NCBI GenBank assembly: GCA_014804795.1
Contig: JAAUZC010000010.1
Span: 83,755-147,754 of the forward strand
Origin: Lachnospiraceae bacterium
GTDB taxonomy: Bacteria; Bacillota; Clostridia; Lachnospirales; Lachnospiraceae
Direction: 5' to 3'
DNA: 64,000 nt
Shown: piece after piece, positions 19,701 through 43,495 of the stretch
Layout: each line of letters begins with the position of its first letter
Position numbering within the stretch: position 1 is the first letter of the stretch
Translations under genes and position numbers: made by a program
Notes under the pieces: generated by a model
Seen by the model: the letters and a program-made list of their open reading frames with translations, nothing else
The model's database searches: none
What the model was told of the DNA's origin: nothing

Positions 19701-19713
19701 ATATGAAAAAGTC

Positions 19714-19741
19714 TTGAAAATATCAATAGTTTTGATATAAT
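19714..19741 (+). promoter_or_regulatory. promoter for tuf
   Basis: TTGAAA, 16-nt spacer, TATAAT. Confidence 0.6.
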
Positions 19742-19801
19742 CAAGAATAGCGGATTGTAAATTTTGGAATTAGGTAACAAAAATAAGGAGGACTTTAGAA
19801 A

Positions 19802-21067: not shown

Positions 21068-21500
21068 GACGGGTATGCCCCGCCCCTTGGGAAAAAGACC
21101 CAAGGGGCGTAGTTGCTAGCGACCCCGATAGTGACTTGCAAGACTTGTATCGTGAGGTACAGGTGAGAAGAAGCAATAGCGAAACTGTAGCTTGACGGAC
21201 AGAAATTTGGTAATATGGCGTATTAAGCGGATAAGCTAGCAAAGAACAGTGAAGTCCAAAAGGCAACCGTAACCTTAAAGCGTAAATCAGGCAAGTAAAT
21301 AGGGAAAGGTTCGGGGTTTATCCCATGAGGTCGCAAAAACGGTTTCACTAACCGTAGTAACAACGAACCGTGTGAAGTCAGCAAAAGCTATAGTAGGAGA
21401 AATTCGAAAGGCTGAACAATGTAACGGTACAGACGAATGTATGTACCTGTGAATATCTGACAGCGGATGTAGGCGAAACGTATAGGAACTGTAAACGTAC
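21068..21500 (+). ncRNA. group II intron-like 5' (domain I) RNA remnant without intron-encoded protein
   Basis: Non-coding, higher-GC block with CCCCTTGGG...CCCAAGGGG stem and AGTAACAACGAACCGTGTGAAGTCAGC..GAAAGGCTGAACAAT motifs resembling clostridial group II intron domain I; no RT ORF or clear domain V found. Confidence 0.5.
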
Positions 21501-21881
21501 AACATAGCGACTGCATCTAAACTTTGTATATGGGAAGGGGTACGAAAGTGTTCCTTCTTCTATTGTGGTTTTGTGGGGTGATTGTGAAAAGGTTGAAATA
21601 AACTGTTTGGATAAGTGTGTCGGAAATGAGAGGGTGTGTTGGAAAGTAAGAAATGTATTTATAATGTGATGGAGAGGATAATAAGTACATAAATAATATA
21701 AGCGTGGAAAAACAACATAAAACATTATAAATCATACTAAAACAAAATGAATCAATACAAAACTGTTAATTTATAAGGAAAACAGTATAAATTTGTATAA
21801 ATCTAATAAATGTGATATTATAAATGTGTATGGTTAGTAACAAGAAATTAAACGTATGTAGAGTTACATATGAGTTCTTAG

Positions 21882-22091
21882 ATGAATCAAAAGAGAGGTT
21901 TAAGAATGAAAGAAAACAAGTGGTTATCAATGAAAGAGATCTGTGTTTATTTGGGAATAAGTAGAGACACTGTAATGAATTGGATGAAAAAAGAAGGTAT
22001 GCCAGCGCATCAAAAAGGGCGTTTGTGGCGTTTTGATATTAATGAGATAGATGAGTGGATGAAAAACAATGAATCACAGCATCAAGAGTAG
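21882..22091 (+). CDS. excisionase-family / MerR-like HTH DNA-binding protein
   Basis: KWLSMKEICVYLGISRDTVMNWMKKEGMPAHQKGRLWRFDINEIDEWMK. Confidence 0.8.
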   Translation: MNQKRGLRMKENKWLSMKEICVYLGISRDTVMNWMKKEGMPAHQKGRLWRFDINEIDEWMKNNESQHQE

Positions 22092-22105
22092 GAGCTGGAA
22101 TAAAT

Positions 22106-24508
22106 ATGTTTAAAATCAAGTGGGACCCTGACAATAATGGAGTCATTTTGTCAGAGTATATAGAAGAGAATGAAGCATTGAATGCGCCGAGACCAGTGTA
22201 TGTTGAAGAATTGAAAATGCTGGAATTAGATAAGGTATTTGTTCTGCCGGATGAAAATGTAGCAGTGTGCTGGGAGATAGACAGAAAGTATTATTATTGC
22301 GGAGAAGTTATTGCAGAGACACGAAGAGGTAATATTTACGAAGAACCCACTGTAATTGTTTATGAGGAATATAGAGGGGCGTGTCTAAATGCAATTGATA
22401 TAGAAACGCTTGTTGAAGCGAATAAAAAGATGTTAGAAGTCGCTGAAAATGAAGCTATGGATTTCATAAAGGCAAGATATGAAGAGTATCAGAAAAAAGG
22501 GAAAGTCGCTGGTTTTGTAGTAGCTTTTAGTGGTGGTAAAGATTCACAGGTTATTTTGGATTTAGTTAGTAGGGTTATACCGCATGAAAAATTCACTCCT
22601 GTTTTTACAAATACAGGGATGGAGTTGCCGTGTACATTACAGCTAATGGAAATTGCAGAAGCACATTATCAAAAAAAATATCCAGGTTTTAAATTAGAGC
22701 AAGCTAAAAGTGATAAACCAGCATTAGATATGTGGAGGAACTATGGTCCGCCAAGTAGAATGAATCGCTGGTGTTGTTCTGTTTTAAAAACAGCTTTGTT
22801 TGGTAGAAAAATGAAAGAATTACTGAAAACTACGAAGCAACCAAAGCTTGTTGTTTTTGAAGGAGTTCGTAATGATGAAAGTGCAAAACGAAGTGCTTAT
22901 AATAGAGTTGGTGAGGGTGTTAAACATGTCAATTTAATTAATTGCAGACCAATTATTAAATGGAATGCAACAGAAACTTATCTCTATCTGTATAAAAGCG
23001 GAGTTGAAATTAATCCAGCATATACATTGGGATTAACAAGAGTTGGATGTGGAGTGTGTCCATTTGCATCGGATTGGTCAGAATATGTTATTCGTAAAAG
23101 GTACCCACAGATTGCAACGGATTATATCAGTGTTGTAGAAGACATGGCCCGAAATATTGGGATAACGTCTAAAAGTAAGATCAATGAATATGTTTCATCT
23201 GGAAATTGGAAAAAGAATGCAGGCGGAAAGGGACTTTTGCGAGATGCTTCTAGAATGGATATTATTTCGAAAGAACCCAATTTTGAATGTATAGTGCAGA
23301 GTCCAAAGGTGGATTGGGAAAAATGGTTTTCAATAATTGGGGAATATTTCTTAGAAAAAATTGACTCTGATTATTATCGTGGAGAGTTGAAATTTGAAGG
23401 AGATGTTGTCAAGTTTGAGGTGAGATACGGAGAAAATTCTGTGCGTTTTAAGGCAATAGGTACTACAAATCGTGTTATGCTGATTAGCTATTTGACAAGA
23501 GCATTTACTAAAACCGCGTATTGTGAGTTGTGTGGAGTTTGTGAGATAGAGTGTCCAACAGGAGCGTTAACAGTTCGTGATTCAGTAGAAATAGATAAAG
23601 CGAAATGTATACATTGTCATAATTGTTTTGAAATCAATACTAAAGGTTGCATAATAGCAACTAGAAAAATGGTTTATGAAGGAGGAAAAGCAGTGGGAGG
23701 AACAGCAACAAAAACGTCAGGAATAGATAAATATTCTACATTTGGTATGAGAGATGAATGGGTGGCAGCATTTTTTGAACAGATGGATGAGTGGTTTGAT
23801 GGTTATGCAAATCTTGGCCCAAAACAAATTCCAGCAATGTTGAATTGGCTTAGAGAAGCTGAGTTGGTAGATGCTAAGGAAAAGAAAGTCACAGAACTGG
23901 CTAAAATGTTGAAACCGTTATATGAATCTAATCCTCTGGTGGTTTGGCAGATTATTTGGATAAATTTAGCATTCAATTCAGCTATTGTTAATTGGTATGT
24001 AAATAGAGTAAATAGTAAAGGGACGTTCACCAAGCAAGAATTGTTGGAATTGTTAAAGGAAGAATATCCAACTTTGAAAGGAGCTACTTTGAAAAACCCA
24101 ATTGATGCACTTGTCAATATGTTTTGTAATTCGCCTTTAGGCGCAGAAGAGGTATATGATGACAATAGTTTATGCGTTGGATTGCTTGAAAAGAAAGGTG
24201 TACAAGTGAAAAATGTGCGCAAATATGGAACTTCAAAAGTGTCATCTGTTGCAGTTGCATATCTTTTATACAAGAATGCGGAAGTAAATGATATGCATGA
24301 AATGACAGTGTCAGATATTTACGAGAGAGAGTGCATGGGTGTTAAAACGATTTTTAATATGAGTAGTGAAACATTTCTTAATGCATTGAGAGGTCTAACA
24401 AATAGTGAAATATTGTCAGCAGATTTACTTGGTGGCTTAGAAAATATTCATCTTGCAAGTGAATTTACGTCACATGAAGTTTTGAAAAAAATGCTTAAGA
24501 GGATTTAA
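22106..24508 (+). CDS. PAPS-reductase-family ATP pyrophosphatase fused to ferredoxin-type Fe-S region and DUF4007-like C-terminus (BrxP-like)
   Basis: VVAFSGGKDSQVILDLVSRV (PP-loop), RVGCGVCPFASDW, CELCGVCEIECPTGAL and CIHCHNCFEINTKGC clusters, C-terminal TFGMRDEWVAAFFEQMDEWFDGYANLGPKQIPAMLNWLREAELV. Confidence 0.8.
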   Translation: MFKIKWDPDNNGVILSEYIEENEALNAPRPVYVEELKMLELDKVFVLPDENVAVCWEIDRKYYYCGEVIAETRRGNIYEEPTVIVYEEYRGACLNAIDIETLVEANKKMLEVAENEAMDFIKARYEEYQKKGKVAGFVVAFSGGKDSQVILDLVSRVIPHEKFTPVFTNTGMELPCTLQLMEIAEAHYQKKYPGFKLEQAKSDKPALDMWRNYGPPSRMNRWCCSVLKTALFGRKMKELLKTTKQPKLVVFEGVRNDESAKRSAYNRVGEGVKHVNLINCRPIIKWNATETYLYLYKSGVEINPAYTLGLTRVGCGVCPFASDWSEYVIRKRYPQIATDYISVVEDMARNIGITSKSKINEYVSSGNWKKNAGGKGLLRDASRMDIISKEPNFECIVQSPKVDWEKWFSIIGEYFLEKIDSDYYRGELKFEGDVVKFEVRYGENSVRFKAIGTTNRVMLISYLTRAFTKTAYCELCGVCEIECPTGALTVRDSVEIDKAKCIHCHNCFEINTKGCIIATRKMVYEGGKAVGGTATKTSGIDKYSTFGMRDEWVAAFFEQMDEWFDGYANLGPKQIPAMLNWLREAELVDAKEKKVTELAKMLKPLYESNPLVVWQIIWINLAFNSAIVNWYVNRVNSKGTFTKQELLELLKEEYPTLKGATLKNPIDALVNMFCNSPLGAEEVYDDNSLCVGLLEKKGVQVKNVRKYGTSKVSSVAVAYLLYKNAEVNDMHEMTVSDIYERECMGVKTIFNMSSETFLNALRGLTNSEILSADLLGGLENIHLASEFTSHEVLKKMLKRI

Positions 24509-24514
24509 AGAATT

Positions 24515-24706
24515 ATGAAGATATGTACTAATTGTAACAAGAATTTGGCGAAAGATGAAATTGCGTTGAGTAAAAAAATGTTGGGAAAAAATACGAAACA
24601 ATATCTTTGTTTGGACTGTTTAAGCGATTATTTGAATGCAGATAAAGATATTCTTATAGAAAAGATAGAACAGTTTAAAGAAGAAGGATGTACATTGTTT
24701 GTTTAG
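24515..24706 (+). CDS. small Cys-rich (zinc-ribbon-like) protein
   Basis: 63 aa, CTNC...CLDC; embedded in operon. Confidence 0.5.
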   Translation: MKICTNCNKNLAKDEIALSKKMLGKNTKQYLCLDCLSDYLNADKDILIEKIEQFKEEGCTLFV

Positions 24707-24715
24707 GAGGCCGAA

Positions 24716-27700
24716 ATGAAATATTCAGAGATTATTGGTGTTGAGAGACATTTTAAATCAGCCTTTGATATTACATCGGATAAAGGCGAGGCATGGAAAA
24801 CGTTTATATCAAATGAGAAGTTTGAGGGGAATTTGTCTCAGATAATTAATTGTTTTACATCTCCAGTGTATAACAATAGAAAATCAATATGGATTCAGGG
24901 AACTTATGGTACAGGTAAGAGTCATTCACTATCTGTTATTAAGCATTTGTTATGTGATGATTATTCAGAAATAGAGGATTATTTACCCCGTATTAATAGG
25001 AGCCAACTTAGAAATAGTATATCGACATTTAGAAAGGAAAAGAAAGCTTTTCCAGTTGTTATGAAAGGAATATATGCAATTACTGATGTTGCCGATTTAA
25101 CTTATACAATTCAGCAACAGGTTGCTGCGGCTCTTGGAGATATTGAAATATCTACGAAAACGGATTTTCAATCAGTACTTCAAATATTAGAGAATGGATC
25201 ATTAGATTCATTTTTTGAAAACTTGTTAGAGAATAATATAGAATTGCACAGTTATGCTGCGAATAAAAAACAGCTTATAAATGTATTGGAAAATAATGAA
25301 ACGAAAGTTATTAGAATTATTGCAGATGAGTTAAAAAAAGCGGGATTGGGCGGTTTTAGAACTCATAATATAATAGAGTGGTTGGAAGAAATAAAAAAAG
25401 AATTAAAGCAAAGAGGTATAGCTGATTATTTGTTGCTAATTTGGGATGAATTTACCTCTTTGTTGGATATTCCTGCCCGTAGAAGTATATTAAATGTTAT
25501 GCAGGATATTGCAGAAATGAGCGCATCTGAAGTAGAAAATGGTACCGATATGCTGGGTGTGTATTTGTTGTTGGTTACGCATAAAAAACTCGAAGCAACT
25601 CGGACATATAAGGATTTAAAAGATGATGAACGTAATATGGCAAAAGCTAGATTTGTTGAGCTGGATTACGGAATGCAGCCAACGACTACATTTCATATTT
25701 TATCAGGGGCATTGGAAAGAAAACAACCAGATGTTTTAAATGAGCTGGTTCAAAAGAATTTTCTTGAAGTTCCAAGCGTGAAAACACTTGTAGATAGAGT
25801 TGTAGATAATGAGGCGCCTAATGCTTCTGAAATTAAAGATAAAATTATAAGTTTGTATCCGTTTCATCCATATACATCATATTTGGCTACATTTGTTTCA
25901 AGAGTTGTGGGTGAAGCAGAGCGAAGCATATTTGGATTCTTGAATGATGAGGAGAATGGATTTAAAAAGTTTATCATAAATGAAATTGAGGATGAAAAGT
26001 TTTTAACCGCAGATTATGTGTGGGATTTTTTTTATAATACTTTTGAGCAAAATGCAATAGGGCATTTTGATGTTATTACAAATAAATACAAACTTGCAGG
26101 TGAGACTGTACGTGAAAAAGGTAAGGATTATTATGCAATATTTAAGACCATTTTGTTGCTGAATATCTTATATCGTGTTACAACAACTGATGCCGATACA
26201 TCTGAAAAGAGTATGGTTAATCCTAGTACGAGTAACATATTGGCTGCATTTAGTGGTGTGCTAGAAGAAAGTGAAGTATTGGCTATCTTAGATTATATTG
26301 ATGAGAAACAGATTTTGCATCGAAATCCAGATGGTGTTTTTGAAGTGGCATCGTCAGCACTACCACAGAAAAAGATTTTGGAAGAAAAGAAAAAATTGTA
26401 TTCCAGCAGAGAAGATGTAAGTAAGATAGTGGAGGAATATTCCATAAAATGTCTTGGGAAACTTCGTACGAATGTTTCTAGAGATGTCTTACGTGAATTG
26501 GATGCACAAGTATTCTGGGGAGGTGAGAAGGAATATCTTCTTAGAGGAAAAATATCTGCGAAATTTAAAAATGAATACTCCCTAAAAGTTGCATTAGTTT
26601 TATATCGTGGGGAAACCAAAGAGTTGGATGATGTTCTGAATAGAACAGAAGTTGATCAAACGATTTCAAGAGATATAATGATAAAAATATCAAAAGAAGA
26701 CGAGTATAAGAATATAGTGTTCGTATTAGCTAATACAGAATTGGGAAATAGAAGGTTTGAGGCATATTTAGATAGCTTGGCCCAAGAGGCAGTAGCTCGA
26801 TCTCTTCAAATGGATGAAGAGAGAATTGAAGGTCAAAAGAATGCTGAAAAATGGATTTCCCAGTGGATAGATGAAATTATCGCATCAGGTATGGCAGATA
26901 TTGTTTTCCGTGGAGATGTCATACACGTGCCATTTAATCAGTGCAGTAAATATCTGAAGAATAACTATATAGGCACCATTTTTGAATATGGATTAGATAC
27001 ATTGCCTGCACCAAATACAGCATGGAAGCATCAGACAAGTAAAAGCGCTGTTGAACTTGTTTTATATACTCCAACAAAAAGTGAATTGGAGACAAAATCA
27101 GGTTCAGATAGTGTTGTACGCTATTTACTTGCAAGTGGGAATACTATGTTATTTGATGAAAAATTACAATTGGTTTCAGATGATTGCAGCATTCCAGTGG
27201 TTAAAGTATGTAAAGAGGTTGAAGCCGTATTTGAAAAGAATAAGAATGAACCATCAATTAACCTAGCGGATGAATTAAAGTTTTTGGTAAAGCCGGAATA
27301 TGGATATTACCAAAATAGATTGTTTATGGGAGCATTAGCACTTGCTTTACGTCCATATATAGATAGACTGTATACATCTGGAAATGGACAGCGAATTGAC
27401 AAAACCGTGATGAAGGATATTGTTGTTGCTATCTTTAATTATTGGGAAAATGATAAGTATAGCGACAAGTTTGTTGTTCGTATGAGTACAGAGGAAGAAA
27501 GAGCTCTTACAGATAAATTAAATATAATTTTTGGCATTACAGATCAGGATGGTCTTTTGGGTACGAAATGGGCGATTAGAACAAAATTCCGCAATCAAAG
27601 TAAGGCACCTTTGTGGGCATTGAAATATGTTGGTAATTGTACTCACAAATATAAAGAGTTTATCGATAAGATGTTTAGATTTTCAAAGAGTACAGATGAT

Positions 27701-28216
27701 AGTATTCAACAAAAATTTATTATTGAACTCTTAGAAGGAATTAAAACATTTGATTTAGAATTGTCTACAGCGATTGCTAGTGTTGATAATGCACAATGTC
27801 TTGATAACTATTTATTGAAAGAACTTTCTAATATTGGTGAAAGTGAAGAATCGCTACAAAGTGCCAAGAAATACTTAGCTGACAAAATGCCGGGAGAGAT
27901 TGTTTTCTGGGAAGAACAGGATGTTCGTGAGCAGATTCTATTATGGAAGATAAATGCCAATGTTCCAGCAGAAAATGTATCATCAGCAAATCCGGGCACT
28001 AATGTGAACAATGATTTGAGCGCAGGTAATAAACAAAGTAGTGGACAAGATAGCTCAAATAATGCTGTTTTAGCGGATAAAGTAGATGAATTGAAGGTAA
28101 GTGTAAAGTTAAAGGTTGAAAATAACAAAACGAATAGCGAAAAATTATATAAAGTTCTTGTTACACTTATTGAGAAGTATCCTAGTATTTTGAAAGATAT
28201 AGATGAACTTTTGTAA
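24716..28216 (+). CDS. BrxC-like large P-loop ATPase
   Basis: 1166 aa; SIWIQGTYGTGKSHSLSVIKHLL Walker A; immediately upstream of PglZ. Confidence 0.75.
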   Translation: MKYSEIIGVERHFKSAFDITSDKGEAWKTFISNEKFEGNLSQIINCFTSPVYNNRKSIWIQGTYGTGKSHSLSVIKHLLCDDYSEIEDYLPRINRSQLRNSISTFRKEKKAFPVVMKGIYAITDVADLTYTIQQQVAAALGDIEISTKTDFQSVLQILENGSLDSFFENLLENNIELHSYAANKKQLINVLENNETKVIRIIADELKKAGLGGFRTHNIIEWLEEIKKELKQRGIADYLLLIWDEFTSLLDIPARRSILNVMQDIAEMSASEVENGTDMLGVYLLLVTHKKLEATRTYKDLKDDERNMAKARFVELDYGMQPTTTFHILSGALERKQPDVLNELVQKNFLEVPSVKTLVDRVVDNEAPNASEIKDKIISLYPFHPYTSYLATFVSRVVGEAERSIFGFLNDEENGFKKFIINEIEDEKFLTADYVWDFFYNTFEQNAIGHFDVITNKYKLAGETVREKGKDYYAIFKTILLLNILYRVTTTDADTSEKSMVNPSTSNILAAFSGVLEESEVLAILDYIDEKQILHRNPDGVFEVASSALPQKKILEEKKKLYSSREDVSKIVEEYSIKCLGKLRTNVSRDVLRELDAQVFWGGEKEYLLRGKISAKFKNEYSLKVALVLYRGETKELDDVLNRTEVDQTISRDIMIKISKEDEYKNIVFVLANTELGNRRFEAYLDSLAQEAVARSLQMDEERIEGQKNAEKWISQWIDEIIASGMADIVFRGDVIHVPFNQCSKYLKNNYIGTIFEYGLDTLPAPNTAWKHQTSKSAVELVLYTPTKSELETKSGSDSVVRYLLASGNTMLFDEKLQLVSDDCSIPVVKVCKEVEAVFEKNKNEPSINLADELKFLVKPEYGYYQNRLFMGALALALRPYIDRLYTSGNGQRIDKTVMKDIVVAIFNYWENDKYSDKFVVRMSTEEERALTDKLNIIFGITDQDGLLGTKWAIRTKFRNQSKAPLWALKYVGNCTHKYKEFIDKMFRFSKSTDDSIQQKFIIELLEGIKTFDLELSTAIASVDNAQCLDNYLLKELSNIGESEESLQSAKKYLADKMPGEIVFWEEQDVREQILLWKINANVPAENVSSANPGTNVNNDLSAGNKQSSGQDSSNNAVLADKVDELKVSVKLKVENNKTNSEKLYKVLVTLIEKYPSILKDIDELL

Positions 28217-28232
28217 GATAGGAGGCTGTCTT

Positions 28233-30677
28233 ATGGATATCAGTAGCTTAGTTGAATTGTTAAAAAATGATAGTATACGGGATGGAGCATATGGCAGATA
28301 TCCGGTACGTTTTCTCAGTATGAAATATGAAGAAGGAGCATCGGATGATATTATTCAGTTGCAAATTCAAATGGGGGGACTGGAGGTTTTTGATGTTAAA
28401 GACATTCTAGTTCACGATGATGCATGGGTTACAGTAGAAAATTTTATTAATTCTATAAAGCAATTGAATCAATACAAGAACTATATTGTTATAGGTTTTT
28501 CTGAGTATGCACGATTTTTGGGACAAGAAGAGTTTGTATCATTATTGATTAGTTTACTAGAAGTTGAGAATGCTGCTGATAATCCAAAACGTAGAATATA
28601 TATACCTTGTTTTGCGCTTTATAGCCAGATTAAGAAAATTATCAGACAATACCATCGTAGAATGGATGCATATAATCCCTTGCTAAATGAGACGGATGTT
28701 GAAGATTTGCCACGTATTTTTTTCATGGAAGATAGTTTGAGTTTAGAAGAACAGAAAAATGAAATTGCAAATTCTTCGGAATGGTTTGGTATGTGGAGAA
28801 ATCAGAATATTGATACTAAGCAACCAATTATTTGTTCTTCAAAAACATTGGCTCACTTCTATGATAAGGCGAGTCCTGATAATGTTTATAACATTCAGAG
28901 AATAAAGTCTTATCAAGATGTACTTAGATATATGTATTCTGTAAATGACCTTCGAGAATATAAAAAAGAACCTGAAGAATTTTATAGAAAGCTAGTATTA
29001 TTAATCAAAAAAACGCCTGGAAAGGATATCGAAGATATTATTTTGGCAGAGATAAATGCACAAAATATAGATGCAAATAACATATATTCTTTATGGAAGT
29101 CATGTGATATATTTAAGCGTTGGTTAATGCAAGTGTATATTCTTCATCAATCCAATGAGGAAGCATACTTATATAAAGTTATGGATGCGTTAGATGAGCT
29201 GACTGATAGGGAGTTTTTAGAGAAAATTTATAAATGCATTTTTAAATATCAGGACACGTTGCTGTGTAAGGAAAGAAAACTTGTTTTACAAAGCATATGT
29301 AGAATTGATAAAGATATTATATTTACGAATGCAATGATAATATTTTACAAGAAAATGTTATCAGATATTATTCGGAGAAAAACAACGATTGTGTTAAATG
29401 AAATTGACTTGACGGAAGACAATGAATTTCTGATAGAAAAAAGAGATGTATTAGTTGAAGCAATTAATGAGGAATTTATGCCATATTTGACTTGCTTTAG
29501 CGCATTTGAGAGACAAATAATAATTTGGTTATATAGAATGAAGTTCATTGATGAAAAATGCATTGAGAAGGTTTATACAAATCTGTGGAATTACATTAAG
29601 TGCTCGGAAAATAATTTATATCCAGTTAGCTATGTAGAGCGATTTGAAGCATATTTTGATAAGTATAGAAAAAATAGGCTTGCACAAGTTGATGCAGATA
29701 CATACGATGCTTCTATTAGTGAATGGAATAAAGATGAAAATAGTTTCTTTGCATGGTATTTAGATGGAGAAATAGAGTATCCTGAGACTTATTTGAAAAA
29801 AAGTGGATTTAAAGGAAATGTTTATGTTATTGATGCTATGGGAGCAGAATATATGGGGTATATACAAGCATTATTAAGCAGAAACGGATATTCTGTAAAA
29901 GATGCACGCTATGCAAAATGCCATATTCCGTCTATTACATCAATGGCGAAAGCCTTTTATCCTGAGGACTATAAATGGATACTAGACTATGATAAGAAAG
30001 TTGTTCACGGTGATACATATTATCATGTTGACAATATGGAAAAAGCGCTTTCTACGATAGAAAGTATAATTAATAATATTATTTTTGATGAGAGTGGAAA
30101 CTCATTCGCAATAATAGCGGATCATGGTGCAACAGTTGGTCATAAAATAAAAAAGAAAGATAAAAAGTATAGTTTTGAGAAGGCGGAACATGGTGGAAGG
30201 TGCTATAAAAATAAAGAACGAGCTTATGTTACGCCGACATTGGATTATGTTGTGTATGATGACGAAAGTGGATGTCAATGGGTTATAGCATTAAATCAGC
30301 AGTCGTTATGGGATAATTCAAAGTATGCTGCTCATGGAGGCGCTACTTTGGAAGAGGTTTTAGTTCCTGTAATTATTGCCGAAAAAGGAACGCATACAAC
30401 AGTCTCATATAGAGTTAAAGCTGAAAATCTTAATGTGTCAGGTATGCAAAAAACAATAGAAGTAAAAATTACTCCTATGCCAAAAGATATAAGCGTTAAG
30501 CTCAAAGCAAAGGATGGTACAGATGTTGTGATGTTTTATAACGATCAGAAAAAAACGTGGATAGGTGAATTAAAACGTGGTATGGAGCAGGATATACAGA
30601 TTATCATAGCCCAGCAGACGTTTGGATTTAGAACTATTCCGCTAACAAAGATGGGAGATGATTTATTCGATGAATAA
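28233..30677 (+). CDS. pglZ: PglZ-domain (alkaline phosphatase superfamily) protein, BREX-type
   Basis: GNVYVIDAMGAEYMGYIQALLSRNGYSV...SITSMAKAFYPEDY...FAIIADHGATVGHK; RBS AGGAGGC before ATG 28233. Confidence 0.85.
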   Translation: MDISSLVELLKNDSIRDGAYGRYPVRFLSMKYEEGASDDIIQLQIQMGGLEVFDVKDILVHDDAWVTVENFINSIKQLNQYKNYIVIGFSEYARFLGQEEFVSLLISLLEVENAADNPKRRIYIPCFALYSQIKKIIRQYHRRMDAYNPLLNETDVEDLPRIFFMEDSLSLEEQKNEIANSSEWFGMWRNQNIDTKQPIICSSKTLAHFYDKASPDNVYNIQRIKSYQDVLRYMYSVNDLREYKKEPEEFYRKLVLLIKKTPGKDIEDIILAEINAQNIDANNIYSLWKSCDIFKRWLMQVYILHQSNEEAYLYKVMDALDELTDREFLEKIYKCIFKYQDTLLCKERKLVLQSICRIDKDIIFTNAMIIFYKKMLSDIIRRKTTIVLNEIDLTEDNEFLIEKRDVLVEAINEEFMPYLTCFSAFERQIIIWLYRMKFIDEKCIEKVYTNLWNYIKCSENNLYPVSYVERFEAYFDKYRKNRLAQVDADTYDASISEWNKDENSFFAWYLDGEIEYPETYLKKSGFKGNVYVIDAMGAEYMGYIQALLSRNGYSVKDARYAKCHIPSITSMAKAFYPEDYKWILDYDKKVVHGDTYYHVDNMEKALSTIESIINNIIFDESGNSFAIIADHGATVGHKIKKKDKKYSFEKAEHGGRCYKNKERAYVTPTLDYVVYDDESGCQWVIALNQQSLWDNSKYAAHGGATLEEVLVPVIIAEKGTHTTVSYRVKAENLNVSGMQKTIEVKITPMPKDISVKLKAKDGTDVVMFYNDQKKTWIGELKRGMEQDIQIIIAQQTFGFRTIPLTKMGDDLFDE

Positions 30678-32103
30678 TTTAGATCAAAAAATTAGTGATA
30701 TATTTCCCGAAGAATCTATTTATAAGACACCTACTAGATATAATATGTTCGCAGGCGTTAATATACCTTCGTTTATAAAAGATTGGCTTATCAAAAGATA
30801 TTCGGATGAACAGGATAATGTAGATAAAGAGGCTCTGTTTGCCTTTTTGGAAAAACATATTCCGGGGAAAGATAGCGATATAAAGAGTAGGCTTATTAAA
30901 GGGGAGACAATTCAAATACTTGTGCGTGTAATTGTCGAATCTGATTTAAAGACCGGAATTTTTAAATTCTCGATTCCGGATATTGGAATAAAAAGCAATG
31001 AAGGGCGCGTGAGCGAATATGTTATGCGTTCTCAGAAAGAGGGGATGAAAGAAGGAGAAAACTGGGGAATTGTAACATTGGATTATGTTCACCCAGAAGA
31101 TGGAGATAAAGGATATGCTGAGTTAGTTAAATTTAAGCCTTTTAAGCCATATACTCCGGATTTCGATTATTATTGTGAAGCTAGGAAACAGTTTTCAACA
31201 ACGGAATGGATTGACTTCATCATTAGATGTATGGAGTATAATCCAGAATCTACGCAGTTTGATTCATATACGCAGAAACTATTGTTCCTTTCCCGTTTGT
31301 TGATTTTCTGTGAACCAAATTTAAATATAATTGAGCTCGCACCTAAGGGAACTGGAAAGTCGTATATTTTTAATAATCTTTCAAAGTATGGTTGGATGAT
31401 TAGCGGCGGAAAGGTGACAAGGGCTAAATTGTTTTATGATATGGCATCAAATAAGTCAGGTATAATTCCAAACTATGAATTTGTTTCGATGGACGAGATA
31501 AAAACGATAGTATTTGGTAATCAAGAGGAATTGCAAGGAGCACTTAAAGGTTATTTAGAGAATGGTTCATTTACAATGGGACAAGCGAAACAAACATCAA
31601 CAGCAGGATTAATTCTGCTTGGAAATATTGATTTAGATAATAATAGGATGCCAATTAATAAGAAATATTTCCAAGAGCTTCCGGATGTGTTTCATGATAC
31701 AGCGTTACTGGATCGATTCCATGGAATGATTGAGGGATGGTATTTGCCAAGAATAACAGAGGATCTGAAATTAGAGGGTTATTCTTTGAATGTGGAATAT
31801 TTTTCTGAAATTCTGTCTATGCAGAGAAAAATGTCTAAGTATGCGGCAGTAGTTACAGAAATGCTTGAGATTCCAAAGAATGCAGATACGCGAGATACAA
31901 CAGCGATAATTCGATTGGCGACAGCATATATGAAAATACTGTTTCCGCATGTAAGAACGATTAATGATATTACGCGAGAAGAGTTTGAGACATTCTGTTT
32001 TAAGCCGGCTTATGAGAAACGAAAAATTGTTCGTACACAGTTATCTATTGCAGATATGGAGTATAGTCCTAAAATGCCAGATATAAGGGTGAGGGAATTC
32101 TAA
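30670..32103 (+). CDS. BrxL-like AAA protein, apparently without C-terminal Lon peptidase domain
   Basis: IIELAPKGTGKSYIFNNLSKYGWMISGGKVTRAKLFYD...VSMDEIKTIVFGNQEELQGALKGYLENGSFTMGQAKQTSTAGLILLGNI; ends at ~478 aa. Confidence 0.75.
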   Translation: MNNLDQKISDIFPEESIYKTPTRYNMFAGVNIPSFIKDWLIKRYSDEQDNVDKEALFAFLEKHIPGKDSDIKSRLIKGETIQILVRVIVESDLKTGIFKFSIPDIGIKSNEGRVSEYVMRSQKEGMKEGENWGIVTLDYVHPEDGDKGYAELVKFKPFKPYTPDFDYYCEARKQFSTTEWIDFIIRCMEYNPESTQFDSYTQKLLFLSRLLIFCEPNLNIIELAPKGTGKSYIFNNLSKYGWMISGGKVTRAKLFYDMASNKSGIIPNYEFVSMDEIKTIVFGNQEELQGALKGYLENGSFTMGQAKQTSTAGLILLGNIDLDNNRMPINKKYFQELPDVFHDTALLDRFHGMIEGWYLPRITEDLKLEGYSLNVEYFSEILSMQRKMSKYAAVVTEMLEIPKNADTRDTTAIIRLATAYMKILFPHVRTINDITREEFETFCFKPAYEKRKIVRTQLSIADMEYSPKMPDIRVREF

Positions 32104-32696
32104 TGATTGACTTTGATAAAGAACTGAATGAAATGATTGCAAACAAGAATTTGATGAATAGTTATAAGCTATATTTTCTTAAAGCATTGATAGTAAATAC
32201 TTCAAACAATGAAAAAGAGTTTGATTTTTATGAAATGGCTTGTTGGATGTGTGCTTATTCGTTTTCTGATGTATGTGCATTAGGAAAACGAATTCGACCT
32301 TTAGACAAATTATACGATGCAGCAGTTCTTATCATAGAGAAGGAAGATTTATTGGAAGCATCTAAAATTTCTGAAGTGTATGATGCAGTAGCTAATACAA
32401 AAGATAAAGAACTTAAACAGTTAATTAACTCTCTTTGTGATTATGTACCATACCGCTTGTTGGCATATTTGTGGCAGCAGGAATTGAAGGGGAAAACGGA
32501 TAGACAGAAGAACCAAATAATTGAGGAATTGTCTAGAAGTGAAGGGAAAAGCGTATATTCTATTTTCTCAATATCATTGCGTAAAAAGAGAATAGAGGTA
32601 AATCCAGAGTGGGCGACATTCATTACTAATAGTAGAAAACGATTGATTCCTTGGATTGATGAAAAGATAGATTTATTTGTTCGGAAAGGGTGCTAA
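32103..32696 (+). CDS. conserved hypothetical protein (defence operon)
   Basis: 197 aa ORF abutting BrxL-like stop and overlapping the desulfurase region; no motif recognised. Confidence 0.6.
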   Translation: MIDFDKELNEMIANKNLMNSYKLYFLKALIVNTSNNEKEFDFYEMACWMCAYSFSDVCALGKRIRPLDKLYDAAVLIIEKEDLLEASKISEVYDAVANTKDKELKQLINSLCDYVPYRLLAYLWQQELKGKTDRQKNQIIEELSRSEGKSVYSIFSISLRKKRIEVNPEWATFITNSRKRLIPWIDEKIDLFVRKGC

Positions 32697-32698
32697 AT

Positions 32699-33817
32699 AT
32701 GATATATGCGGATAACGCTGCAACAACAAAACTCGATATAGATGCATTTGAAGCAATGAAAATGTTTTTATTAGAAGAGTACGGGAATGCTTCTCAACCA
32801 TACTCATTTGCGAGTTCAGCAAAGCGCGCATTAAAAAAGGCTAGAGAAACAATTGCAAATTGTATTGGTGCTTTTCCAGATGAGATTTATTTTACGTCGG
32901 GGGGAACAGAGAGCGATAATTGGGCGATAAAAATAGCATCAGGTGATGGCGATATAATAACATCGTCTATAGAACATCATGCTATTTTAAATGCATGTAG
33001 CGTAATGGAAAAGAAAGGGAAATTTGTTGATTATATTCCAGTTTCAAAAGAAGGTATCGTTGAACTTGAAAATTTGGAAAATAGTATAACACAAAAAACG
33101 AAATTAATTTCTATTATGTATGCAAATAATGAAATAGGAACAATCCAACCAATAAAGAAGATTGCGGAGATTGCACATAAGAATAATTGTTTCTTTCATA
33201 CAGATGCAGTGCAAGCAGTGGGACATGTACAAATAAATGTTCATGATTTAGATATAGATTTATTATCTGCATCAGCGCATAAATTTAATGGCCCCAAAGG
33301 AGTTGGATTTTTATATGTAAAGAGGGGCGCACAGATAAGTGCTTATCTTAATGGAGGTGGTCAAGAGAATGGTTTAAGAGCAGGAACCGAAAATGTTGCA
33401 GGTATTGTGGCAATGGCTGTTGCATTAGAAAAAAATTGTAATTGTATAAATGAAAATAGGAAAAAAATAAAAAAATTAGAGGAACTTTTTATCAATGAAT
33501 TAAACAATTCCGGAGTAAGATACATTAGGAATGGAAGTGAAGATCATATTCCTGGAAATATAAGTCTTTCGTTTTCAGGGATAGAAGGAGAGATGATACT
33601 TCATAGGATGGATATTAGAAAAATATGTATTGCTACAGGAGCAGCATGTGATAGTGTAAATACGAATATCTCGCATGTGTTGAAAGCTATTTGTGTTCCG
33701 GAAGAATATATAAAAGGTACGATTAGAATATCTCTTGGAAAGGACAATACGGAGCAGGAGATTGGGGTGTTAACAGATGAATTGATTAAAATTGTATCGA
33801 ATAGAGATTTTGTGTGA
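32699..33817 (+). CDS. cysteine desulfurase (IscS/NifS/DndA-like)
   Basis: YADNAATTKLD...TSGGTESDNWAIK...HTDAVQAVGHVQINV...SASAHKFNGPKGVGFLYVKRG...ATGAACDS. Confidence 0.92.
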   Translation: MIYADNAATTKLDIDAFEAMKMFLLEEYGNASQPYSFASSAKRALKKARETIANCIGAFPDEIYFTSGGTESDNWAIKIASGDGDIITSSIEHHAILNACSVMEKKGKFVDYIPVSKEGIVELENLENSITQKTKLISIMYANNEIGTIQPIKKIAEIAHKNNCFFHTDAVQAVGHVQINVHDLDIDLLSASAHKFNGPKGVGFLYVKRGAQISAYLNGGGQENGLRAGTENVAGIVAMAVALEKNCNCINENRKKIKKLEELFINELNNSGVRYIRNGSEDHIPGNISLSFSGIEGEMILHRMDIRKICIATGAACDSVNTNISHVLKAICVPEEYIKGTIRISLGKDNTEQEIGVLTDELIKIVSNRDFV

Positions 33818-33892
33818 TAAGATATGTGACAATAGTGCTGAATGGGGCATTATATTTACGGTAAGTTTTATTGTATTATGAAAGGCGCAAAA

Positions 33893-35182
33893 ATGAATAA
33901 TATACTAAATGAATTACAGAATAAGATGGAAAATGGATATTTTGGAGATGATATTGATGATGTGGCAAAGGCTGAGGCTGCAGAGTATGGTGAATTAATT
34001 GAAAACGATGTAGATATAAATGATTTACTTCAATCTAACATTGTTTGTTCAAATAGTGGCTCAAATATCAAAACGATAATTAATAGTTTAGAAGACGGTT
34101 ATTATGTTATTCCGCCATTTCAAAGAAGATTTGTATGGAAGAAAAGTAAGATAGCATATTTGGCACTATCTATCATTCAGAGTGTCCCTATACCGCCGAT
34201 ATATGTATATACGAATGAAGAACGTAAGCAAGTTGTGTTAGATGGACAACAGCGGATGATTGCAATCTTTTTGTATTTTAATGATTTAGAATATACAAAA
34301 TCTGATAATCATATTGACTTTAAAAAAGTATCTGAATTAAACGTAGAGCTAAGAGGTTTAGAAGCCCAAGAACGAAAAATGGTGGAAGAACAAAGCCCTA
34401 AGAAAGAACTCAATAATGTACGAAGAAATATAGCAACAATGAAGAAAAAACTTCTTGTTGAATGTGGAATGAAACGGTGCTCGTATTGTGTAGATGAGGA
34501 TAAAGATATCTCGTTTAGTCTATTTGCAGAAAAAAATCGGGACTACTTATTACAAAAGAGATTAGATATAACTCTTGTGGAATCAAGAGACATGAAATGT
34601 ATTCCGCATAAAACATTTTCTAATATTTTCAAACTGTTAAATAGTGGCGGAAAGCCTTTAGGACCTCAAGAGGTAAGAAATGGAGTGTTTTGGGATACAA
34701 CATTATACGAAAATATCTATGAGATAAATGAAAGTCATAAAACCTGGAGAGAAATTTATGGTAATATTAGTGATTTCTCAAAGGATATGGAAATTCTGCT
34801 AAAAATGGTAGCGTTATGTTTTTATTCTTGTAAAAATGAAGACGGATATTTTGAAATTGATATTCAAAGGTTTTCATGGGCTAATATTATGGATAGTTAT
34901 TCGGAGATGGCATCAGAAAAGAAGGGGGAGAGGACTAAGGAAGTTTTGCTGTTAAAAAAGTATTTGGATGCTATAGAAATTGACACAAATATAAAATGTC
35001 AAAGAGCTGTGTTTGAAGCTATGTTTGTGGCATATAGTAAAGCGTGTTTGCCGGATGATGTTAAAATATCTTATAAGTGGTTATCCAGTAAAAAATTTGA
35101 AAAAGTATCTTCAAATAAGTCTAGTGTAGAAGATAGGATTAATAAGGCAGTGGTTTGGTTAAAGGAGATATGCTGTGTATAA
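33893..35182 (+). CDS. DUF262-domain (ParB/Srx-like) protein
   Basis: YYVIPPFQRRFVWKKSKIAYLALSIIQSVPIPPIYVY...VVLDGQQRMIAIFLYFND. Confidence 0.85.
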   Translation: MNNILNELQNKMENGYFGDDIDDVAKAEAAEYGELIENDVDINDLLQSNIVCSNSGSNIKTIINSLEDGYYVIPPFQRRFVWKKSKIAYLALSIIQSVPIPPIYVYTNEERKQVVLDGQQRMIAIFLYFNDLEYTKSDNHIDFKKVSELNVELRGLEAQERKMVEEQSPKKELNNVRRNIATMKKKLLVECGMKRCSYCVDEDKDISFSLFAEKNRDYLLQKRLDITLVESRDMKCIPHKTFSNIFKLLNSGGKPLGPQEVRNGVFWDTTLYENIYEINESHKTWREIYGNISDFSKDMEILLKMVALCFYSCKNEDGYFEIDIQRFSWANIMDSYSEMASEKKGERTKEVLLLKKYLDAIEIDTNIKCQRAVFEAMFVAYSKACLPDDVKISYKWLSSKKFEKVSSNKSSVEDRINKAVVWLKEICCV

Positions 35183-36191
35183 TATAGAAAAGTTGTCTCG
35201 CGATATATATGAAGCGATATCTGGAGATATACAGAAGAAGTTTAGAGAGCATTACAATATGGTAATTGTGGGCAATAATTCTACAGGAAAAACAAGCCTT
35301 ATCGGATGTTTGTTAAATACTGTAAGAAAACAAAAGAGAAAAGATTTTTATTATATAGACCCTAAGAATCGAACTGTATTTGAACCCGAAGAAGAGGGGG
35401 GATATAGTCTTGATTTAGATTCAATATCAGCTTACGATATTATATCGAGTAGAATACGTAAGGAAGTAATGGCTAAAAAAGATGTATTTGTTGATAACTT
35501 ATCGGGTGGAGGTTTCTTTTTCACGGAGCTTGTTACAAAATTTGCTATATACAAAAATGTCCTTGAGCAGTTTATGGGATGGGAGATTAGTATAGAAAGT
35601 CCAGAAGAAACGTCGACAAGTATATTTGAAAGAGCATTAGAAAGGAATCAGAGAAAAAAAGTCATTATTAATAATAGTTATGAAATTGCATCCATATCGA
35701 GTAGTGAGCAAGCGAAAATGCGAATAGTCATGGAAGTAATGATTGCAAGAAATAAGAATTGCAAAGTAGTAATTATTGATGAGTTCGATTCGCATTTCGA
35801 TTCCGAGGGAATGGTTAGTTTTTTAAATCAACTTGTCGAAAAGTTTAATGAGATGCGATTTATAGTTATCATTCATAATTTTGAGGTTCTTGTAAATATT
35901 AATGATTTTGATGCTTTGATTTTTAATATATTAGATACGTCTGAGACGCCATATAATTATGTTGATACAAATAATATTAGTCAAATAGGTGATGCATATA
36001 AAGCATTTAATAGATTTGCAGATAAAAAGGGTAAACAAGAGCGGCTGTTGGGAGAATGTATAACTTATGTAGTAAAAGGCGAAAAAATTCCAACAGAGAT
36101 ACATAATAAAATAGCAAAGATAGACAGGAAATTGTTGACTAATAAAGAAAAAATTTTGTTTGATTATATAAAGGAGAGGAATGGAGAATAG
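35175..36191 (+). CDS. ABC-type ATPase (Septu PtuA-like / defence ATPase)
   Basis: Walker A VGNNSTGKTSLIG, signature-like SISSSEQAKMRIVMEV, Walker B KVVIIDEFDSHFD; overlaps neighbours on both sides. Confidence 0.75.
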   Translation: MYNIEKLSRDIYEAISGDIQKKFREHYNMVIVGNNSTGKTSLIGCLLNTVRKQKRKDFYYIDPKNRTVFEPEEEGGYSLDLDSISAYDIISSRIRKEVMAKKDVFVDNLSGGGFFFTELVTKFAIYKNVLEQFMGWEISIESPEETSTSIFERALERNQRKKVIINNSYEIASISSSEQAKMRIVMEVMIARNKNCKVVIIDEFDSHFDSEGMVSFLNQLVEKFNEMRFIVIIHNFEVLVNINDFDALIFNILDTSETPYNYVDTNNISQIGDAYKAFNRFADKKGKQERLLGECITYVVKGEKIPTEIHNKIAKIDRKLLTNKEKILFDYIKERNGE

Positions 36192-37002
36192 GCTATTTAT
36201 ACCAACGAATTATGCTGTCGAGCTGCCACAAGGGAATAAACCATATTATAATTCGGCTAACAAGAAAGAGATTATAGCACCATTGTTGAATGCTTCACGT
36301 GGCTATTGTATGTATTGTGGCAAATCATTATATAACGAGACGGATTTTATTATTAATATGGAACATTCAGTTGATAAAGAAGGATATGAAGATCAGAAGG
36401 AAGGAGATTATAAATACTTAAAGCATTGCAAATATAATTTTTCTATCTCATGTCCTATATGTAATATGGTGTGTAAAAAGAGTATTGAAAAGGTAAGCAT
36501 GCAAAATGTGCCAAAAACAATAGAGTGTTCAAAGCAGAAATGTGATGAGAAGAGTTGTGAGACATATTCCAATATTCGTGAGAATTATATGAAAAGGAAT
36601 GCTATTATTTTGCAACCGGAAGGTGTGAGAAATTCTGATGTTTATTATCGAATAGGATATGATTTGTTAAAGAATATTTACATACCAGAAATTCAAGGGA
36701 CGGACGAAGAAATAAATAATCAATATCATCTCTTTTTTATTCAAAATCATATTAATAGATTTCAACTAAATGGTAGCAGATTTTCGGATTGTGTTATAGA
36801 GCTTTGTGCTGATATAGTTTTTCTTTACGAAAACGGTGTTGAAACTGTTGATGATATTTTTTCTTTTTTTATTGGCAGACATTTTTCTAATATTCTTGGT
36901 GAATTATTTATTGAATACCTGAAAATGAATTTTGCGGAAAAGTCAGCAAAGCAAATGTGCGAATATTGTAGATTATTAGTTTTATTGGATTCAGTAAATT
37001 AG
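36181..37002 (+). CDS. HNH-type nuclease with Cys pairs (PtuB-like)
   Basis: CMYCGKSLY...IINMEHSVDKEGYED...CPICNMVCKK. Confidence 0.65.
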   Translation: MENRLFIPTNYAVELPQGNKPYYNSANKKEIIAPLLNASRGYCMYCGKSLYNETDFIINMEHSVDKEGYEDQKEGDYKYLKHCKYNFSISCPICNMVCKKSIEKVSMQNVPKTIECSKQKCDEKSCETYSNIRENYMKRNAIILQPEGVRNSDVYYRIGYDLLKNIYIPEIQGTDEEINNQYHLFFIQNHINRFQLNGSRFSDCVIELCADIVFLYENGVETVDDIFSFFIGRHFSNILGELFIEYLKMNFAEKSAKQMCEYCRLLVLLDSVN

Positions 37003-37153: not shown

Positions 37154-40123
37154 ATGAAAAGTATAGCGGATCTAGAAAAAAGAATACACTGTCTGGAAAA
37201 GGAAAATCAATACTTGAAATATCTGTTGGCAGATGCAGGGATTTCTTATTCTGAAAAAGAGATAGATGACGGAGATGATGATGAATATGATCCAGATCAA
37301 GGATCAAGAATTATATCAAAAGATATTACTGAAACAGATGCAAAAGTGTTCTTCAGTATGTTTTGGGGACGTACAGATGTATACAGTAAGCGCACCATAA
37401 AGAAATCTACCGGGGAAGTAAATTATTATACACAGTGTCATAATTTTTGGAAAAACGGCTGCCCGAGAATTACTGGAAGTAAGATAAAATGTCAGGATTG
37501 CCAGAAACAGGCATATAAAGAGTTAAAAAAGGAACAAATTATTGAGCATTTAAGGGGAAATTCAAAAGATGCTACTGATGTTATAGGTATTTACCCGCTT
37601 TTAGCCGATGATACCTGCCGATTCATCGTCTTTGATTTTGATAATCATGAAAAAGATGCAGAAAAAAATGATTTTGCAAATGTTGATGATATGTGGAGAG
37701 AGGAAGTAGACTCTCTGAGAAAAATATGTGATATGAACGGAATTGATGCATTGGTAGAGCGTTCACGTTCGGGGAAAGGCGCACATCTTTGGATATTTTT
37801 TCAAAAACCAATAGAAGCCAGTCTTGCAAGAAAATTTGGAAATGCGCTGTTAAATAAAGGAGCGGAGTCTGTAAATTTAAGGTCATTTCGTTTTTATGAC
37901 CGTATGTTGCCGATGCAGGATCATCTTCCGGAAGGCGGAGTGGGTAATCTGATTGCACTGCCATTACAGGGGCAGGCATTAAAAGAGGGAAACAGTGCAT
38001 TTATAGATGAACACTGGAATGCATATCCCGACCAGTGGAGAGTGCTGCTAAATAAGAAAAAACTTTCAAAGGAGTTTGTCGAGGATAAGATAAGTGAATG
38101 GACAGAGGGAGATTCCTATACTGCCTCTGATGGCAAAGATATTTTTGAGAGTGATCATGAAAAGCCATGGGACAAAACAAAGCATTTTCAGAAGGGGGAT
38201 GTTGAAGGAATATTACATATTACGCTGTCGAACGGTGTATATGTGAATACGGTGAATTTACAGCCAAGAATACAAAATCAGTTCAGAAGAATGGCTGCAT
38301 TTTCCAATCCTGTTTTTTATAAAAATCAGGCTATGGGATTGTCTAATTTTGAAAATTACAGATATGTTTATCTTGGAAGCGACGAAGGTGAGTACATAAA
38401 AGTTCCAAGGGGTATTTTGGAAAATATAACCGAGGAGTGTGAAAAAGCCGGTATTGAATATGAAATAGAAGATAAGCGGAGCAAAGGGCTTCCGATTCAT
38501 GTGGAATTTATTGGGGAACTGAGAGAATCACAGATACCTGCTGTAGAAAAGCTTCTTCAAAATGACAATGGAATTCTTAATGCAGCCACAGCATTTGGAA
38601 AGACGGTTGTGTGTTGCAATGTTATTGCAAAAAAACAGGTAAGTACGCTTATTCTTCTTCAGTCGTCAGCCCTGATGGAACAATGGCGGGAAGCACTGGA
38701 AAAGTTTTTATATATTGATGAGGAACTTCCTGAGTATGAAACGCCGACAGGCCGCAAGAAAAGACGAAAAAGTGTCATTGGGAAATTGCAAGGAGCTCAT
38801 GATTCCACCACAGGTATTATTGATATTGCGATGGTTGGTTCAATTTGTAAGAATGGTGAATACCACAAGCGGTTAAAAGAGTATGGACTCATATTGGTGG
38901 ACGAGTGTCACCATGCCGCTTCAGATACAATCGTGGATATATTACAGGAAGTAAATGCAAAATATGTATATGGAGTAACAGCTACCCCATTCAGGGGCGA
39001 TAGTTTGGAGAAAATAAATTATATGCTCCTTGGTCCAATTCGTTATAAGTACACTTCAAAGGATAGGGCGAAAGAGCAGGGGATAGAGCATCTTGTTTAT
39101 CCACGATTTACAAGAGCGGTTGCTCCAAGATTTTCACAGGATAAAATGCATCCAAATGAGGCATATGAAATTATCCGCAATAATGAAGACAGAGACGAAT
39201 TAATCATAAGGGATGTGAAACAATGTGTAGATGAGGGAAGAACGCCGGTGGTTCTTTCCAAATACGTGGAACATTCACAGCGGTTATATCAGCGCTTGAT
39301 AAATTATGCAGACAAAGTCTTTTTACTGTCCGGCAGGAATTCAATGAAAGATCATAAAGAAATTTTAAAACAGATGAATCAGGTTACGCCCAAAGAAAGT
39401 ATGATCCTTGTTGCGACTGGTAAACTGATAGGAGAAGGATTTGATTATCCGAGGCTGGATACACTGATTATGGCAACTCCGGTGGCATGGAAGGGAGTAG
39501 TAGAGCAGTATGCCGGACGTTTAAACAGGGATTATGCTGGAAAGAAAAGCGTGATTATTTATGATTATGTGGATAGTCATATATCCATGTTTGACCGGAT
39601 GTATCATAAAAGGCTTAAAGCATATAAACAGATTGGATATGATATTTTTTCCGGGACTGGTACACATATGCAAACGACCAATGCAATTTTTGACATAGAT
39701 AATTACGCAGATATCTACCAGAATGATTTGCTTGCCGCAGAGAAAGAAATCATAATTTCAAGTCCGGCTATTAGTGGCAAAAAAGTATATGATATGATTC
39801 ATTTACTTAGAGAAAAGCAGGAGGCAGGAATTAAAATAGTCATTGTCACATGGAAACCGGACTGCTATGGCTATGGGGACAGTGCGTACTGGCAGGAACT
39901 TCAGGAGCAGATGAGAAAGGCAGGATTCGAAATGAATCTTGTGGAGGATTACTGCGAACATTATTGTATTATAGACCACGAAGTGGTCTGGTACGGAAGT
40001 ATGAATTTTCTGGGAAAAGAAGATGCAGAAGATAACCTGATGCGTATTGGAGATGCAAAGATTGCGAACGAATTACTTGAAATGACATTTGGAAATGAAA
40101 AATATCAGGGCGAGACGATGTAA
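37154..40123 (+). CDS. archaeo-eukaryotic-primase-like domain + SF2 helicase + C-terminal PLD-like domain (TOTE-type conflict protein)
   Basis: FIVFDFDNHEKD, ALVERSRSGKGAHLWIFF (AEP-like); AATAFGKTVVCCNVIAKK, LILVDECHHAASDT, QYAGRLNRDYAGKK (SF2); EHYCIIDHEVVWYGSMNFLG (PLD-like). Confidence 0.8.
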   Translation: MKSIADLEKRIHCLEKENQYLKYLLADAGISYSEKEIDDGDDDEYDPDQGSRIISKDITETDAKVFFSMFWGRTDVYSKRTIKKSTGEVNYYTQCHNFWKNGCPRITGSKIKCQDCQKQAYKELKKEQIIEHLRGNSKDATDVIGIYPLLADDTCRFIVFDFDNHEKDAEKNDFANVDDMWREEVDSLRKICDMNGIDALVERSRSGKGAHLWIFFQKPIEASLARKFGNALLNKGAESVNLRSFRFYDRMLPMQDHLPEGGVGNLIALPLQGQALKEGNSAFIDEHWNAYPDQWRVLLNKKKLSKEFVEDKISEWTEGDSYTASDGKDIFESDHEKPWDKTKHFQKGDVEGILHITLSNGVYVNTVNLQPRIQNQFRRMAAFSNPVFYKNQAMGLSNFENYRYVYLGSDEGEYIKVPRGILENITEECEKAGIEYEIEDKRSKGLPIHVEFIGELRESQIPAVEKLLQNDNGILNAATAFGKTVVCCNVIAKKQVSTLILLQSSALMEQWREALEKFLYIDEELPEYETPTGRKKRRKSVIGKLQGAHDSTTGIIDIAMVGSICKNGEYHKRLKEYGLILVDECHHAASDTIVDILQEVNAKYVYGVTATPFRGDSLEKINYMLLGPIRYKYTSKDRAKEQGIEHLVYPRFTRAVAPRFSQDKMHPNEAYEIIRNNEDRDELIIRDVKQCVDEGRTPVVLSKYVEHSQRLYQRLINYADKVFLLSGRNSMKDHKEILKQMNQVTPKESMILVATGKLIGEGFDYPRLDTLIMATPVAWKGVVEQYAGRLNRDYAGKKSVIIYDYVDSHISMFDRMYHKRLKAYKQIGYDIFSGTGTHMQTTNAIFDIDNYADIYQNDLLAAEKEIIISSPAISGKKVYDMIHLLREKQEAGIKIVIVTWKPDCYGYGDSAYWQELQEQMRKAGFEMNLVEDYCEHYCIIDHEVVWYGSMNFLGKEDAEDNLMRIGDAKIANELLEMTFGNEKYQGETM

Positions 40124-43252: not shown

Positions 43253-43495
43253 CTAATGATATATTTCATTGCTATAATCCCACAAATATATTATACTTAA
43301 AAGAAGCAAATCTTAGTCCTTTTTGCAAACGCAAAAAGATGATTGGCAAATCCTTTGTCAAGCTGTTATAAGGATTACCCCTTGAGGTTTCAGCAGTAGG
43401 TTGCCCTATATGCCAATCAGAGTATTTGCCAGATTCTATGAGGAGGTCAAATACAAATTATACTTCTCGTCTTATGAGAAAGGGAAGTATGACGC
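43253..43495 (+). ncRNA. candidate structured RNA leader, copy A, upstream of HNH gene
   Basis: ~96% identical (by eye) to 48527-48768; contains CTTTTTGC-aaac-GCAAAAAG hairpin, GATTGGCA/TGCCAATC and GGCAAAT/ATTTGCC alternative pairings. Confidence 0.55.

Follow-up and report, generated by a model that had tools for sequence, protein, structure and literature searches.

A complete type 4 BREX operon linked to a Menshen module in a Lachnospiraceae bacterium

When three restriction-like genes directly follow a BREX operon predicted to use sulfur chemistry, do the two sets of genes form one system or two? The question is raised by a locus of Lachnospiraceae bacterium (GCA_014804795.1, contig JAAUZC010000010.1), for which we analysed 64,000 nt of DNA (called here the window). 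Positions 21882-37002 of the window hold 11 densely packed ORFs, all on the + strand, with overlaps of 1-20 nt in six adjoining pairs. We find a complete type 4 BREX, ordinary in other respects, to which a Menshen module is linked. This is a new combination of known kinds, and an earlier report of Menshen beside type 4 BREX may exist. The core of the locus has already been described; its less ordinary part is the attached exchangeable nuclease module.

Gene content of the locus

The 11 ORFs and their family matches are listed below in window coordinates; the family models were from PADLOC for BrxP, BrxC and BrxL and from NCBIfam for PglZ.

21882-22091, + strand: 69-aa excisionase/MAD1-type helix-turn-helix protein (HTH_17, E 9.9e-15; MAD1, 59.5 bits, cut-off 80)
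22106-24508, + strand: BrxP (PAPS_reduct, E 1.8e-26; PDLC02510, 783 bits over 1-798; PDLC02511 over 541-761)
24515-24706, + strand: 63-aa CxxC...CxxC putative zinc-finger protein (motif at 4 and 32)
24716-28216, + strand: BrxC ATPase (PDLC02472, 639 bits, full length)
28203-30677, + strand: PglZ of BREX-4 type, phosphatase/nuclease-like (NF033445 BREX_PglZ_4, 541 bits, cut-off 140)
30658-32103, + strand: BrxL (BrxL_ATPase, E 3e-110; BrxL_N, E 1.8e-23; PDLC02505, 675 bits)
32103-32696, + strand: 197-aa orphan, mainly helical, without family match
32690-33817, + strand: cysteine desulfurase, DndA/SspA-like (Aminotran_5, E 1.6e-77; DndA, 421 bits; SspA, 420 bits)
33842-35182 (likely start 33893), + strand: putative NsnA, DUF262/GmrSD_N (GmrSD_N, E 1.8e-24; NsnA, 123.7 bits)
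35175-36191, + strand: putative NsnB, ABC/SMC-like (PtuA-like) ATPase (mad8, 41.9 bits; NsnB, 38.5 bits)
36181-37002, + strand: putative NsnC, HNH-like nuclease (PDLC03885, 182.8 bits over 4-270; PtuB, weak)

On the 5' side the operon is preceded by genes for EF-G and EF-Tu at 17583-20989 (recognized from their translations) and then by a long spacer. The 69-aa helix-turn-helix protein, which is also kept 5' of brxP in three related loci (L056, L058 and L059; for the set of relatives see below), is the probable regulator of the operon. A search for + strand terminator-like sites between the desulfurase and NsnA genes found none.

The type 4 BREX core and its sulfur supply

The core genes constitute a full type 4 BREX, and this identity is secure. 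BrxC, a BREX-4 PglZ and BrxL are encoded in a single operon with overlapping genes and match their family models with the scores given above. BrxP has a PP-loop PAPS-reductase domain with the motif SGGKDS and two ferredoxin-like Cys clusters; SGGKDS and the Cys residues are invariant across seven aligned sequences. DUF4007 had no Pfam match in BrxP at E<=0.01; the C-terminal part of the protein (541-761) is nevertheless matched by the second PADLOC model of BrxP, PDLC02511. The PADLOC model of DndC gave 28 bits with BrxP, and none of the locus proteins matched the PADLOC models of DndD and DndE. BrxC carries a Walker A motif (GTYGTGKS) and LIWDEF and has a weaker match to SspC (83 bits). The PglZ motif residues (VIDAMGAEY, ADHGAT and AHGG) are intact, BrxL is of the short type, in which no Lon domain was matched, and the expected motifs are intact in BrxC, PglZ, BrxL and the desulfurase alike. 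A class-wide tally of the BrxP family (352/392) was discarded as ferredoxin and generic PP-loop noise, and strong full-length matches were used instead.

A preliminary description of this DNA had proposed 11 tightly packed, overlapping genes on one strand with the four core proteins among them. The ORF list agrees with the former, the single block common to the window and its nearest relative (21789-37000) bears out the boundary of the unit, and the family searches match all four proteins. The proposed PP-loop/Fe-S protein stands as BrxP with its SGGKDS motif, amended by the two ferredoxin-like Cys clusters; the named parts all have support from family searches, DUF4007 in Pfam excepted.

PglZ of the window is 51-57% identical to its counterparts in loci L057, L058, L059 and L096, for which BrxL identity is 86-92% and BrxP identity 79-82%. 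By these identities, PglZ changes fastest among the four core proteins, as would be expected for an antagonist-facing part.

The desulfurase keeps both the PLP-binding Lys (in SAHK) and the loop Cys (in ATGAAC). Since the PADLOC scores for DndA and SspA are nearly equal, and the NCBIfam DndA model gives 331 bits, below its cut-off of 480, ‘DndA/SspA-like’ is the right level of naming. Three further desulfurase homologues, 35-44% identical to the operon copy, are present in the genome. There is one other PAPS_reduct match in this 95% complete genome, a 305-aa frame on contig C27; with this single match, no second DndC/SspD is evident besides the C27 frame.

Type 4 BREX genes brxPCZL are named as a third gene family making phosphorothioates (PT) in PMC11931770. 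PMC12839542 likewise credits type 4 BREX with making them, and both papers cite Yuan et al. for the experimental proof. The type 4 BREX desulfurase and a linked small zinc finger were reported in January 2026 (PMC12839542); the family of the 63-aa CxxC protein is usually found directly 5' of dndA in other type 4 loci. From this literature, sulfur chemistry is very likely to operate at the locus, and in the present copy the sulfur would be transferred by the desulfurase and BrxP. Sulfur transfer with a cysteine desulfurase had been supposed in the preliminary description, along with the suspicion that a link between BREX type 4 and phosphorothioation was already published. Both suppositions are borne out by the two papers, and the dedicated desulfurase does travel with the core in related loci.

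The 197-aa protein encoded between brxL and the desulfurase gene has no family match in Pfam, PADLOC, NCBIfam or PHROG. Homologues were found in L056, L057, L058, L059, L063, L065, L068 and L096, which confines its relatives to one subclade of the desulfurase-bearing type 4 loci; searches for viral or plasmid relatives found none. Its AlphaFold model is helical (pLDDT 88.7) and had no fold match in the PDB. Profile comparisons gave no match with BrxP, BrxL or the HNH protein of locus L061; likewise, a likeness of its ‘SYK’ motif to HNH N-termini received no support from profile comparison. From the position of the gene, a role as adaptor for BrxL or the desulfurase may be inferred.

The NsnABC module

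Judged by family models and gene order, the last three genes are the Menshen module NsnABC. The preliminary description had seen here a split DUF262/ATPase/HNH set; three such genes are indeed present, and we assign them to this known system. NsnA, NsnB and NsnC adjoin in this order, with PADLOC scores of 123.7, 38.5 (weak) and 182.8 bits, and the same trio occurs in L054, L058 and L171. The 17-20 kb of sequence covered at L054 and L171 contain no BREX gene; another Nsn locus, L053, ends at a contig edge.

The NsnB profile matches structures of retron PtuA-type ATPases (E 5.9e-13), and the protein has motifs GNNSTGKT, ISSSEQ and IIDEFD. NsnC, for which there was no Pfam match, carries the HNH-typical pattern CMYC...EH...CPIC-N, invariant in five sequences as CMYC...EH...CxxC-N. 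Its HNH assignment rests on this motif and on the family, as the structure model is too poor (pLDDT 57.9). No plasmid or viral relatives of NsnC were found.

One more DUF262-type ORF is present in the genome (G000, contig C31, L177:3564-4946); it encodes 460 aa without DGQQR and adjoins a sigma-factor-like ORF.

Relatives of the locus and the slot after the desulfurase

We annotated 80 loci from a BrxL profile search of GTDB species genomes and ∼20 from genome samples. Thirteen relatives have BrxL identity of at least 60%, and in 12 of them (all but L101) the desulfurase gene lies behind brxL. It is also present in most of the remaining type 4 loci sampled from Bacillota, where the CxxC protein is usually encoded shortly 5' of it.

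Between the window and its nearest relative, L056, homology takes the form of a single block (21789-37000; 87.9% over 15,219 columns), which ends at the NsnC stop; the sequences flanking the block in L056 are unrelated on both sides. A single block between different flanks indicates that all eleven genes were one transferred unit in the L056 lineage.

Among the annotated BREX relatives, NsnABC follows the desulfurase only in L056 and L058. The L058 core is close to that of the window (BrxL 89%, BrxP 79% identical); its Nsn proteins, in the equivalent slot, are 44, 34 and 40% identical. Loci L057, L059 and L096 have cores as close as that of L058, and their homology to the window stops at the desulfurase. 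NsnABC is absent from L057, L059, L060, L061, L063, L068 and L096; as most relatives are without it, the BREX core does not need NsnABC. The preliminary description had asked whether the last genes travel with pglZ/brxC: the desulfurase does, and the Nsn triad does so only in the L056 and L058 lineages.

The two BREX-linked triads group together, apart from three others. This fits either an old BREX-Nsn association that evolved fast and was lost repeatedly, or the acquisition of related triads on two occasions; the core tree, with supports of 46-81 near the key nodes, is compatible with both Nsn loss and independent gain. Strong non-self matches of NsnC numbered 2 in 392 class genomes, 1 in 392 order genomes and 0 in 399 phylum genomes (partly overlapping Bacillota samples). 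Given such rarity, a second triad in the identical slot is hard to put down to chance, with the proviso that clustering in defence islands makes a plain null too lenient.

Other relatives hold different genes or nothing in this position, which makes the slot behind the desulfurase an exchangeable one. In L059 and L063 it contains a gene for a ∼190-aa protein followed by DndB (PF14072, E 1.7e-33 and 3e-26); the two-gene cassettes have coordinates L059:13232-15090 and L063:13149-14916. Two loci of Bacteroidota, L119 and L125, likewise have both families behind brxL. The ∼190-aa protein has a weak GIY-YIG match in Pfam (E 0.02-0.04), and its alignment has the pattern G-x-Y-I-Y ... Y-V-G ... R ... 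E ... N; by inference it may be called GIY-YIG-like. DndB is not named as a part of type 4 BREX in the main text of PMC12839542. The slot holds an HNH protein in the more distant L061, with a relative in L062, and a DUF2971 protein in L096; in some close relatives it is empty.

Neighbouring sequence

A 989-aa protein with TOTE primase, helicase and PLD-like domains is encoded directly 3' of the operon (37154-40123). We rejected this gene as a part of the system, as it lies outside the block common to the window and L056. Farther on are genes for a Schlafen/AlbA_2 protein (40168-41637), a small HNH protein (43496-44440) and a fusion of ADP-ribosylglycohydrolase and macro domains (46669-47712); the genes 3' of the operon are a wider defence island. 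Two matches to Staphylococcus-1 RNA (RF03112), at 43303-43432 and 48576-48705, are just over the gathering score, in a genome with Lachnospiraceae as the nearest named relatives. Between tuf and the BREX operon, a match to group II intron D1-D4 (RF02001, 101.6 bits; 21146-21317) looks like an intron remnant, with no ORF for an intron-encoded protein alongside.

Proposed role of NsnABC

We lean towards a type 4 BREX with its own sulfur supply and an attached Menshen module; the latter would be a second nuclease effector that can be exchanged and works semi-autonomously. The desulfurase would take sulfur off cysteine, and BrxP, with BrxC, would attach it to the DNA backbone within short motifs as a phosphorothioate self mark. 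BrxC, PglZ and BrxL would recognize and block phage DNA without the mark. NsnA (a DUF262 NTPase) and NsnB (an ABC ATPase) would sense infection or the state of DNA and, on this presumed trigger, allow NsnC, the HNH nuclease, to act as a presumed backup. A functional link of the module to the core is possible, as NsnABC was transferred together with the core in the L056 lineage and the L058 lineage has a triad in the same slot.

A tighter link would make NsnABC a dedicated sulfur-dependent restriction arm, with NsnA reading PT like SspE, NsnB coupling ATP use and NsnC cutting. SspE, the known reader of this fold, is a DUF262 protein with an HNH nuclease; it reads PT and needs DGQQR and a Tyr (Y63 in EcSspE) in a P-x-Y-Q pocket (PMC13251355). 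NsnA keeps DGQQR (at 134) and, in P-P-F-Q at 91-94, the aromatic-Gln pair; in addition, the co-transfer of NsnABC with the core, the divergent triad in the same slot of L058, the separate clade of BREX-linked triads and the presence of DndB, a PT-linked protein, in the slot elsewhere would all suit such an arm. However, NsnA of the window has Phe in place of the PT-reading Tyr, as do its counterparts in L056 and L058, and the standalone NsnA of L054 has Tyr. As the aromatic ring is kept, sulfur reading by NsnA is still conceivable, yet the Phe site does not support it. Menshen, moreover, also occurs without BREX, and most relatives have no NsnABC; on these two grounds we do not uphold the sulfur reader or restriction arm of the preliminary description and consider it doubtful. 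We judge similarly improbable a broader version, in which the slot after desulfurase/brxL would be dedicated to ‘ParB-fold sensor + nuclease’ pairs reading the sulfur mark (NsnA/B/C here, the GIY-YIG-like protein and DndB elsewhere), making BREX-linked Menshen a new PT-dependent restriction module.

NsnABC might instead be an independent defence system of the same island, with no functional link to a BREX core that still makes phosphorothioates. Consistent with this are the standalone Nsn loci L054 and L171, the further defence-like genes downstream (TOTE, Schlafen) and a gap of ∼75 nt between the desulfurase stop and the likely nsnA start at 33893, which has its own ribosome site (RBS-like GAAAGG). 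This alternative seems unlikely to us, as the L056 block stops at the NsnC stop with the flanking TOTE gene outside, and a family with three strong non-self matches in three samples of ∼390-400 Bacillota genomes has nevertheless placed a second triad in the L058 slot. That the locus makes no phosphorothioates at all, with a desulfurase only building the Fe-S clusters of BrxP and a core using other chemistry, could appeal to the distance of BrxP from DndC (28 bits) and to a ferredoxin-like region without assigned role (PMC12839542), but is highly improbable given the PT synthesis ascribed to type 4 BREX in PMC11931770 and PMC12839542, which both cite Yuan et al., and the DndA/SspA-like desulfurase linked to the core.

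A Menshen module moving with a BREX-4 core, and the DndB pair in the same slot in other lineages, provide a gene set for testing whether add-on nucleases are licensed by sulfur marks. This set bears on how sulfur-based BREX recognizes and stops phage.

Comparison with known systems

With type 4 BREX as described (PMC12839542, PMC11931770), the locus shares the four core proteins, the desulfurase and the small CxxC protein; it differs in the place of the CxxC gene, which stands between brxP and brxC rather than 5' of dndA, in the 197-aa orphan between brxL and dndA and in the attached NsnABC. Auxiliary pairs of OLD-ABC and HNH proteins next to BREX have been described (PMC12839542). With Menshen it has in common a DUF262 protein, an ABC ATPase and an NsnC-type HNH protein in the same order and overlapping, whereas here they stand behind a type 4 BREX, form a sequence clade separate from the other three triads and include a weakly matched NsnB. 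The desulfurase and PP-loop protein recall SspABCD-SspE and Dnd, the DUF262 and HNH parts resemble SspE and BrxC weakly matches SspC; in contrast to those systems, DndD/DndE are absent and BrxP is far from DndC, and in contrast to SspE, DUF262 and HNH are on separate proteins, an ATPase is added and the PT-reading Tyr is Phe. Finally, NsnB and NsnC resemble PtuA and PtuB of Septu and retron systems, but here a DUF262 protein is added, and the layout is neither that of a retron nor limited to two genes.
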